Source of the DNA: Bacteroidota bacterium
GTDB lineage: Bacteria; Bacteroidota; Bacteroidia; Bacteroidales; F082
NCBI GenBank assembly: GCA_014382445.1
Contig: JACNJS010000059.1
Location: 1-60,551 of the forward strand
Length of the DNA: 60,551 bases
Direction of reading: 5' to 3'
A model generated the notes under the pieces. That model saw only the letters and a program-made list of their open reading frames with translations, was not told where the DNA came from and ran no database searches. Shown here piece after piece: positions 32,233-34,235 of this stretch (within the stretch, counting starts at the first letter, position 1; every line of letters begins with the position of its first letter). A program made the position numbers and the translations under genes.

Positions 32233-32263
32233 TTGCATAATGAACATATGTTCATTATCTTTG
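32233..32263 (+). promoter_or_regulatory. promoter of the Fe-S/NifX cluster
   Basis: TTG (32233-32235), a 20-base spacer, and TATCTTTG (32256-32263) match the Bacteroidota -33/-7 pattern closely. The expected start site lies near 32270, giving a leader of about 40 bases before the ATG at 32309. Confidence 0.75.
32237..32258. promoter_or_regulatory. perfect 22-bp palindrome, probable repressor operator
   Basis: The half-site ATAATGAACAT is followed directly by its exact complement, giving a 22-bp perfect palindrome with core TGAACATATGTTCA. It fills the spacer between the -33 and -7 boxes and overlaps the first bases of the -7 box, so a bound dimer would block RNA polymerase. No candidate regulator gene lies beside it. 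Confidence 0.8.
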
Positions 32264-32308
32264 CGGTCTGATTTATTAATTAAATATTTTAAACTAAAAA
32301 ATAAAATT

Positions 32309-32512
32309 ATGAGTATATTAGGAAGCGGAAAAGGGCTTGGGCTTGGAGGTGGCCGGGGTCGAAACAAAGGTGGTGCATTTGGCGTTGGCGGTTATTGCGT
32401 TTGCGCTAAATGTGGAGAAAAGCTACCTCATCAGCAAGGTATAAAATGCACTACAATTAAATGTCCTGCGTGTGGAACAACAATGATAAGAGAAGAATTG
32501 CTTAAGAAATAA
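32309..32512 (+). CDS. small Gly-rich, four-Cys zinc-ribbon or Fe-S protein
   Basis: 67 residues. The first third is glycine- and arginine-rich (MSILGSGKGLGLGGGRGRNKGG). The second half has Cys pairs CVCAKCG and CPACG plus two further Cys, spaced like a rubredoxin or zinc ribbon. I recall similar small proteins beside NifX and Mrp-type ATPase genes in anaerobes, but no function is established. The ATG at 32309 follows the mapped promoter with a sensible leader; a longer frame from 32240 would start inside the operator. It is six bases from the ATPase gene, so it is the first gene of the operon. Confidence 0.75.
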   Translation: MSILGSGKGLGLGGGRGRNKGGAFGVGGYCVCAKCGEKLPHQQGIKCTTIKCPACGTTMIREELLKK

Positions 32513-32517
32513 TGTGA

Positions 32518-33384
32518 ATGAAAATAGCAATCGCCAGCGGTAAAGGAGGGACAGGAAAAACAACCCTCTCAACAAATTTTGCCGCATATTTGTCAGAGTT
32601 CGGAGATGTAGTGCTATGTGATCTGGATGTAGAGGAGCCAAATTCCGGCTTGTTCATTAAAGGCGACATTGTGCATCGTGAAAAAAAGTTTAAAATGATT
32701 CCGCAATGGAATGAAGATACTTGTACTCTTTGCGGAAATTGCCAGAAATCATGTAACTTTCATGCAGTTATACAGCTGGGTCCTAATATCATGGTGTTTC
32801 CGGAACTGTGCCATAGCTGTTATGCTTGCTCCGAATTATGCCCCACATCATCATTACCGATGGTAAACAAAAAGATAGGTCAATTAACACATTATCAAAA
32901 AGATAACCTTAATTTTATAGAGAGCAGGCTGGATATAGGAGAAGAACAGGCTGTTCCTCTTATTGCTCAAACCAATAAATTCGTTGATGATAATTTTTCG
33001 GATTTCATAATTAAATTATTTGATTCTCCTCCCGGAACATCATGTCCGGTAATTGAAGTAACAAAGGATGCAGATTTTGTAATACTTGTTACTGAGCCCA
33101 CACCTTTTGGCCTCCACGACCTTAAACTAGCTGTTGAAACAATGAAGGAACTCAGGAAAAACTTTGGCGTAGTTGTAAATCGGTACGGTATAGGAAACGA
33201 TGATGTTATAGCATATTGTGAAAAGGAAAGTATTCCTCTTTTGGCAAAAATACCCAACAGCAGGCAGATAGCAGAACTCTATTCGTCAGGTAATCTGATA
33301 TATAAGGAGTTTCCTGAAGTAAAGCAACAATTGGAAAATATCAAAAACTTCATAATGAATCAAATACAGCAGCCAACAGTATGA
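32518..33384 (+). CDS. MinD/Mrp-superfamily P-loop ATPase with inserted two-cluster ferredoxin domain
   Basis: 288 residues. The deviant Walker A is ASGKGGTGKT (residues 6-15) and the switch I Asp is in CDLDVEEPN (34-42). A 2x[4Fe-4S] ferredoxin domain is inserted at ~60-115, with Cys 69, 72, 75, 79 and 98, 101, 104, 108. Switch II is DSPPGTSCP (~169). The nucleotide-specific region VTEPTPFGLHDLKLAVE and VVNRYGIGNDD follow. These proteins are related to Mrp/NBP35 Fe-S carriers and normally occur as adjacent pairs with NifX-like proteins. The exact job is unknown, probably assembly or delivery of a metal cluster. It overlaps the next gene by four bases (ATGA). Confidence 0.9.
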   Translation: MKIAIASGKGGTGKTTLSTNFAAYLSEFGDVVLCDLDVEEPNSGLFIKGDIVHREKKFKMIPQWNEDTCTLCGNCQKSCNFHAVIQLGPNIMVFPELCHSCYACSELCPTSSLPMVNKKIGQLTHYQKDNLNFIESRLDIGEEQAVPLIAQTNKFVDDNFSDFIIKLFDSPPGTSCPVIEVTKDADFVILVTEPTPFGLHDLKLAVETMKELRKNFGVVVNRYGIGNDDVIAYCEKESIPLLAKIPNSRQIAELYSSGNLIYKEFPEVKQQLENIKNFIMNQIQQPTV

Positions 33385-33884
33385 AGGAAATTGTAGTTAT
33401 CTCAGGAAAAGGAGGCACAGGTAAAACATCACTTACAGCATCGTTTGCCGTGCTTGTTGCTAAAGTTAAAAACGAAGCAAAGGAAATTGCTGAAGATGAG
33501 TTTAAGGACTATGTAATTGTTGACGGCTCACCCGGTGTTGGTTGTCCGGTGGTTTCATCACTTTCAGGAGCTAAATTCGTGGTACTTGTGACCGAACCTT
33601 CTGTATCAGGATTTCATGATTTAAAGAGGGTATATGAACTTGTTAAGAAATTTAATATCAAAACCGGATGTATAATCAATAAATACGATATCAATAAAAA
33701 AATAACTTCAGAAATAAAAGAATATCTAATTAAAGAAAACATTGTCCATATATCTAATCTGCCATATGATGAGGATTTCACAAAAGCGATGACCAACGGC
33801 CAAACCATTGTTGAATATTCAAGTGGCCGGTTAAAGGAATTAGTTACAGATAGTTGGAATACCATATTAAAAAACGTATCATAA
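33381..33884 (+). CDS. second MinD/Mrp-type ATPase with large internal in-frame deletion
   Basis: 167 residues. Walker A VISGKGGTGKTS is intact at residues 7-16 and switch II is DGSPGVGCP at ~48. The neighbouring ATPase has about 122 more residues between these points. The whole switch I strand and all eight ferredoxin cysteines are missing. The join lies near VLVAK/VKNEAKEIAEDE. The rest (VTEPSVSGFHDLKRVYELVKKF, CIINKYDIN) is normal. Frame and stop are intact, so it is either a shortened working partner or a relic. Without switch I it is unlikely to be a normal ATPase. It starts inside the stop of the first ATPase gene. Confidence 0.8.
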   Translation: MKEIVVISGKGGTGKTSLTASFAVLVAKVKNEAKEIAEDEFKDYVIVDGSPGVGCPVVSSLSGAKFVVLVTEPSVSGFHDLKRVYELVKKFNIKTGCIINKYDINKKITSEIKEYLIKENIVHISNLPYDEDFTKAMTNGQTIVEYSSGRLKELVTDSWNTILKNVS

Positions 33885-33896
33885 AAAAAAAGAATA

Positions 33897-34235
33897 ATGA
33901 AAATAGCATTTACAACAAAAGGAACAAATTGGGATTCGGAAATGGACCCAAGATTTGGAAGAACTGAATACTTTGTATTTTATGACGAAACTAAAAAGGA
34001 GGTTACCAGTTACGATAACAGGGATACCGGAAATGATGCTCACGGTGCCGGACCAAAAACAGCGCAAAAATTATTTGAACTAAAAGCTGATGTACTGATA
34101 ACTGGAAACGGTCCGGGAGGCAATGCCGCAGCAGTAATGAACAAAACAGGTATTACTACATATGTTGGGGCAGGCGAAATGACCGTTAAACAAGCATATG
34201 CTGCTTTTATAAAAGGCGACCTCAAAAAAGTATAA
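33897..34235 (+). CDS. NifX/NifB-family FeMo-cofactor-binding-like protein
   Basis: 112 residues forming one dinitrogenase iron-molybdenum cofactor-type domain (ribonuclease H-like fold). The start KIAFTTKGTNWDSEMDPRFGRTEYFVFYD and the GAGPKTAQKLFELKADVLITGNGPGGNAAAVMN segment are family marks. The protein has no cysteine. Stand-alone members of this family carry or insert metal-sulfur clusters, but none outside nitrogen fixation is well defined. It is 12 bases from the shortened ATPase and belongs to the same operon. Confidence 0.88.
   Translation: MKIAFTTKGTNWDSEMDPRFGRTEYFVFYDETKKEVTSYDNRDTGNDAHGAGPKTAQKLFELKADVLITGNGPGGNAAAVMNKTGITTYVGAGEMTVKQAYAAFIKGDLKKV

Follow-up and report, generated by a model that had tools for sequence, protein, structure and literature searches.

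The DNA analysed here, referred to as the window, is a stretch of 60,551 nucleotides (contig JACNJS010000059.1 of NCBI GenBank assembly GCA_014382445.1, positions 1 to 60,551 of the forward strand) from a Bacteroidota bacterium of the GTDB lineage Bacteroidales; F082. It carries a compact operon of four genes behind a promoter that contains a perfect palindrome. The features of this operon, together with a gene located on another contig of the same genome, are as follows.

32233..32235, + strand: -33 box TTG, read from the sequence, with a TTG-to-TAnnTTTG spacer of 20
32237..32258, no strand assigned: perfect 22-bp palindrome (ATAATGAACATATGTTCATTAT) with its core TGAACATATGTTCA at 32241-32254, the proposed DUF134 operator
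32256..32263, + strand: -7 box TATCTTTG, starting exactly 15 nt after the start of the operator core
32309..32512, + strand: six-Cys mini-protein of 67 aa (CxCxxC...CxxxxCxxC), ATG at 32309
32518..33384, + strand: Orp3/Orp4-like ATPase of the MinD/Mrp type, 288 aa, carrying two 4Fe-4S motifs (exceeds the cut-offs of PF01656 and PF00037)
33381..33884, + strand: second ATPase, internally deleted as judged by alignment with relatives, 167 aa against about 290, no ferredoxin motif
33897..34235, + strand: NifX/Orp8-like protein of 112 aa without cysteine (PF02579, 56.3 bits, cut-off 26.3)
Contig C33, L002:1548-2174: duf134 gene of the source genome (G000), encoding a protein of 208 aa (PF02001, 75.5 bits, cut-off 27)

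The genes follow each other with gaps of 5, -4 (ATGA) and 12, which agrees with the tight packing (gaps of 12 or less, one ATGA overlap) described in a first-pass annotation made from the sequence alone. The small protein had been called a four-Cys protein there, but it has six cysteines. It matches no Pfam or NCBIfam family above cut-off, and across 49 aa it shares 45% identity with the C-terminal end of the source genome's DUF134 protein. In the first ATPase, CbiA/ParA and 4Fe-4S motifs were recognised by Pfam and NCBIfam, in line with the earlier description of a MinD/Mrp ATPase with two ferredoxin-type clusters. The second ATPase is present as described, with a CbiA/ParA match, but the absence of its ferredoxin insert had been overlooked. 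The last gene was rightly called NifX-like, and its product matches the PDB structures 2wfb, an ORange Protein (ORP; E 1.4e-10), 1rdu (E 1.1e-11) and 1eo1. Upstream, a gene for an FAD-dependent protein (PF21688, 30664-32205) stops some 30 bp short of the operon's -33 box, and a glyoxalase-family gene (PF00903, 34550-34936) lies downstream, roughly 300 bp beyond the operon. A near-match comparison of the window with a plasmid collection gave no match.

The operon is not restricted to the source genome. Its first ATPase was detected (E <= 1e-30) in 71 of 198 genomes of the same order and in 10 of 395 genomes drawn from the phylum, the source genome being included in both sets. Close relatives mostly arrange the genes as duf134, the six-Cys gene, often a small nifX, the first ATPase, the second ATPase and nifX. 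Moreover, a scan of named genomes with the ATPase alignment as query yielded 332 confirmed loci, the best 80 of which carry labels of many phyla, archaea included.

The nearest known system is the ORP complex of Desulfovibrio. Orp3 and Orp4 contain two 4Fe-4S motifs each, are co-purified with Orp8 and take up clusters from MrpORP in vitro (PMC6345978). ORP proteins have been called similar to Mrp/ParA/MinD ATPases, and a role in placement of the division ring has been put forward as a hypothesis (PMC4672049). The operon of the window is alike in encoding an ATPase pair and a PF02579 protein, the latter matching an ORP structure. Furthermore, two additional genomes have MrpORP-like genes downstream of this operator, directly behind the site at L271 and second, after a 736-aa ORF, at L270; their products score 314 and 293 bits, below the NCBIfam cut-off of 450. 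No MrpORP was found by Pfam and NCBIfam among the four genes of the window operon. The differences are also clear. The Desulfovibrio orp operons are divergent and controlled by sigma-54 and DVU2106 (PMC3897727, PMC6345978), whereas the unit in the window is a single operon, has a DUF134-type operator in a promoter of the -33/-7 form, and adds the six-Cys mini-protein. Two 4Fe-4S motifs are found in the first ATPase and an Orp8-like protein is encoded, whereas the second ATPase has no ferredoxin motif. Since the second ATPase thus fails a defining feature of the complex, the unit is called ORP-like. It resembles a metal-cluster operon in which the products would handle metal clusters. The earlier statement that this combination has no defined job outside nitrogen fixation is not supported, given its resemblance to the ORP complex described in PMC6345978.

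Two other views of the unit have to be weighed. An accessory role in nitrogen fixation is suggested by the annotation of PF02579 as 'Dinitrogenase iron-molybdenum cofactor', but we give it almost no credence and rejected it: no PF00148 protein (NifD/NifK) was found in the source genome, the assembly of which is about 96% complete, and the score under the nifX model TIGR02663 is 17.4 bits where 112 are required. This agrees with the earlier remark that no nif genes were in view. Alternatively, the operon may be a decaying remnant that has ceased to function as an ORP-like complex, its second ATPase having suffered an in-frame deletion. Filtering left 139 ATPase ORFs in 80 loci. Two CxxCxxCxxxC motifs are present in 138 of these, and the sole exception, with none, is the second ATPase of the window. 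By alignment with two relatives, it misses about 120 residues with all ferredoxin cysteines, and duf134 has moved away from the operon. Being incomplete, this ATPase may point to decay of the unit or to a faulty assembly at this place; the loss of the insert may be a deletion or a misassembly of the source genome. Against decay, the gene keeps an open reading frame, what is left of it shares 72-76% identity with the two relatives, and operator, promoter and spacing are intact, so that we regard a remnant as doubtful, though a good deal less so than a nitrogen fixation unit.

The promoter was examined along with the palindrome. TTG and TAnnTTTG at -33 and -7 represent the promoter type of Bacteroidota, for which a spacer of 20 is normal. 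In the window, the spacer from TTG to TATCTTTG is 20, and the perfect 22-bp palindrome lies between the two boxes, as noted in the first-pass annotation. Across 82 loci (81 related loci and the window's own locus), 57 sites with at least 11/12 arm matches were found, compared with a mean of 3.4 and a maximum of 7 in 20 first-order Markov simulations that served as chance control. The position of the site is likewise conserved. In a set of 73 distinct sites that have a -7 box, TAnnTTTG lies at exactly +15 in 70 and at +14 in 3, and the commonest spacer from TTG to TAnnTTTG is 20; a -7 box was present in the same interval at 111 of 28,200 random positions. In 10 of the 73, a weaker second site follows 26-28 bp downstream, about the transcription start. 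A chance palindrome was considered and rejected, as the exact 14-mer core occurs as a single copy in the 3.47-Mb source genome, the sites far outnumber those simulated and a reversed-pattern control matches in 1 of 198 genomes. Recurrence of the gene order in relatives and conservation of the palindrome in orthologous promoters were the two tests that the first-pass annotation had set for itself. Both recur, so neither of its named refutations holds, and its view of a metal-cluster unit regulated through an operator within the promoter spacer is supported.

The first-pass annotation also missed the likely regulator. No regulator gene was found beside the operon within the window. The composite motif TGARCAWAWGTTCAYTANNTTTG (at most one mismatch) occurs twice in the source genome, at this operon and in the promoter of an unlinked duf134 gene on contig C33. 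The only one-mismatch core site of the genome, TGAACAAATGTTCA at C33:55137, occupies the same promoter position before duf134. Further sites with 11/12 arm matches exist in this genome, and TAnnTTTG follows none of the five examined (the site at C26:25481 lies outside that set). Directly upstream of duf134 on the same contig is a rubrerythrin-family gene (PF02915, L002:841-1344). The DUF134 family (PF02001; UPF0251, COG1342) is listed as of unknown function. In the literature searched, which leaves most subscription papers outside its coverage, no title or abstract on a regulator role of DUF134, UPF0251 or COG1342 was found, and DUF134 is absent as a whole word from PMC10434189.

The association between motif, operon and duf134 extends over the order. 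Among the 198 same-order genomes, duf134 is present in 105, the operon in 71 and the composite motif in 66. The gene was found in 62 of the 66 motif genomes versus 43 of the 132 others (p 5e-18, kinship ignored), and in 66 of the 71 operon genomes versus 39 of the 127 others (p 7e-19, kinship ignored). Moreover, the motif tracks duf134 even where the operon is lacking, occurring in 19 of 39 operon-less genomes with duf134 versus 2 of 88 without it. The association has exceptions. In four genomes (G404, G497, G503 and G549), the motif is accompanied by no detectable duf134, and in five (G427, G458, G497, G522 and G549) the same holds for the operon; in G497, the assembly of which is 99% complete, the motif stands at the operon itself. 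The composite motif (at most one mismatch) is absent from 43 of the 105 duf134 genomes.

The duf134 genes themselves carry the site. Within -200..+30 of 94 Bacteroidota duf134 genes, mostly from the same order but in a few cases from different orders within the phylum, sites with at least 10/12 arm matches were found at 70, versus 25 of 484 control ORFs; with at least 11/12, the counts are 60 of 94 versus 15 of 484, some of the control ORFs with sites being neighbours of real sites. Some of the 24 duf134 genes lacking a site of at least 10/12 have a TGAG...CTCA type. In addition, eight genomes have an operon and an unlinked duf134 (more than 10 kb away or on another contig) with both promoters readable, and in six of them (G000, G455, G496, G545, G551 and G571) both promoters carry a site of at least 10/12. 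In G487 and G567, the site is at the operon and none at the unlinked duf134; G398, G421, G434 and G547 were left out of this count, as their operon contig ends too early. Taken as indirect support, these data make DUF134 proteins the best candidates for binding the palindrome, which is best read as their putative operator. Several close relatives also have a near-operator about 320-380 nt inside the duf134 coding sequence (among others L089:2135, L090 on the reverse strand, L092:3821 and L095:3494). By eye, these near-sites coincide with a conserved Cys-Gly-His-Met-Phe stretch, and they were set aside as operators on account of this coding conservation, although a second site there may be real.

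Additional evidence comes from the predicted recognition helix. The DUF134 profile matches the DNA-binding domain of Bacillus subtilis DeoR, a SorC family member (7bhy, E 4e-5), with NISRPTVSR aligned to NVSRPTFTR and SRPT in register. Both TTGAACA and ACATATGTTCAA occur in the DeoR operator. The solved complexes show base-specific contacts in TTGAACA, and R39 touches G4 and T14 in one structure (PMC11229326). By the alignment, R39 is the Arg of SRPT. The two proteins are thus alike in an aligned HTH with SRPT and in the half-site (TTGAACA / TGTTCAA in DeoR), but DUF134 has C-terminal Cys clusters or a NifX domain in place of the SorC effector domain, and Pfam showed no SorC sugar-effector domain in any DUF134 protein that was scanned. 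Variation in the helix is accompanied by variation in the site. Dyads like TGAGAATATTCTCA, of the TGAG(N6)CTCA type, were read by eye at 13 of 15 genes with an SRxTFA helix and at 0 of 79 others, the best dyad per gene being taken without a consensus. Across all sources, 94 of 117 genes had a usable dyad, chosen by ends and symmetry. G stands at arm base 4 in 15 of 16 Ala68 genes versus 10 of 78 others (a group to which the Gly68 genes belong), and C stands at arm base 3 in 5 of 8 Ser65 genes versus 3 of 86 others. A tree from which the helix was left out shows 5 changes at residue 68 and 13 at arm base 4, with just two supported independent pairs, which have the same direction in most pairings. 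The link is striking, but these pairs are too few for a test.

The reading that we prefer, at a probability of roughly 0.8, is that the ORP-like operon is repressed in trans by the unlinked DUF134 protein, which senses a metal, cluster or redox state. A dimer of the protein encoded on contig C33 would read the TGAACA half-sites through its DeoR-like SRPT recognition helix. Once bound, it would cover the -33/-7 spacer and shut off both the operon and duf134 itself. The Cys-rich C-terminus may act as the sensor of metal, cluster or redox state, this part also including a copy of the six-Cys domain in the source species and a fused NifX domain in other genomes. Upon the signal, DUF134 would release the promoter when the operon products are needed. 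We infer repression from a site that fills the -33/-7 spacer, a position that fits but does not prove it. A dyad at a fixed register over the promoter fits binding by a dimer as well as repression, and the occasional second site downstream fits blocking.

The same placement could also serve activation. Operators of MerR likewise fill the promoter spacer, and DUF134 at the site could activate in MerR fashion, twisting the promoter into shape; the fixed register of the operator, with 70 of 73 at +15, would suit this. With a commonest spacer of 20, however, no distortion is needed, and the weaker second site in 10 of 73 cases suits blocking better, which makes activation unlikely. Still less probable is that another dimeric regulator, of the ArsR/SmtB type or of the SorC/DeoR kind, binds the palindrome and that duf134 is just a fellow target. 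SmtB-type operators presumably resemble the palindrome of the operon, the half-site TTGAACA is read by DeoR in B. subtilis, and 4 of the 66 motif genomes show no DUF134 match. On the other side, the motif follows duf134, the family compared, even without the operon, and the operator type shifts with DUF134's own recognition helix.

The reach of this regulator appears to exceed one operon and one phylum. Of the listed named loci (the best 80 of 332), 71 are not labelled Bacteroidota; among these, sites of at least 11/12 were found in 7 of 26 with duf134 and in 0 of 45 without, all seven beside duf134. The seven carry the labels Neomarinimicrobiota, Calditrichaeota, Nautiliales, Campylobacteraceae, Cloacimonadota, Alphaproteobacteria and Planctomycetota, although MAG labels can be erroneous. 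Apart from these seven, most duf134 genes not labelled Bacteroidota have no site of at least 11/12, and some have dyads like TGAGCATATGCTCA. A NifX-like gene is found on 30 of 38 duf134 stretches from operon-less genomes. DUF134 is fused to PF02579 in four proteins (L218, L241, L247 and L308), and many other DUF134 proteins are fused to the six-Cys domain. C104, C107, C124 and C127 are invariant in 16 aligned DUF134 proteins and are candidate ligands of zinc, an Fe-S cluster or a different metal. Genes behind sites in one or two genomes encode DUF5320, DUF364, FmdE, ARMT1-like, DUF1847, cupin and MrpORP-like proteins. Together, the NifX-like neighbours, the fusions and the genes behind sites fit a metal-cluster regulon. 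In two genomes, an operator also precedes, by 39-47 bp, a gene for a pyridine nucleotide-disulphide oxidoreductase (L258:2864-4222 and L263:1411-2769, reverse).

More broadly, we think it likely that DUF134 represents a widespread class of autoregulated metal-cluster repressors in several phyla, with a simple recognition code and sensing by its own Cys or NifX part. The code would probably be such that Thr or Ser at residue 68 reads TGAAC, with Ala or Gly going with TGAG and Ser65 with TGCAC. Within Bacteroidota and a number of further phyla, the targets would probably be genes of the ORP-like, NifX-family and MrpORP-like kinds. A family listed as of unknown function thus probably gains, on comparative grounds, the job of a gene switch. 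A regulator with a defined operator would offer a handle on the ORP complex and on the NifX-like proteins of organisms without nitrogenase. Its regulon would list their partners, among them, in a few genomes, DUF5320, FmdE-like, DUF364, DUF1847 and MrpORP-like genes, and its signal would tell what the ORP-like system responds to. If true, a function would be assigned to a family present in 105 of the 198 same-order genomes and in archaea.
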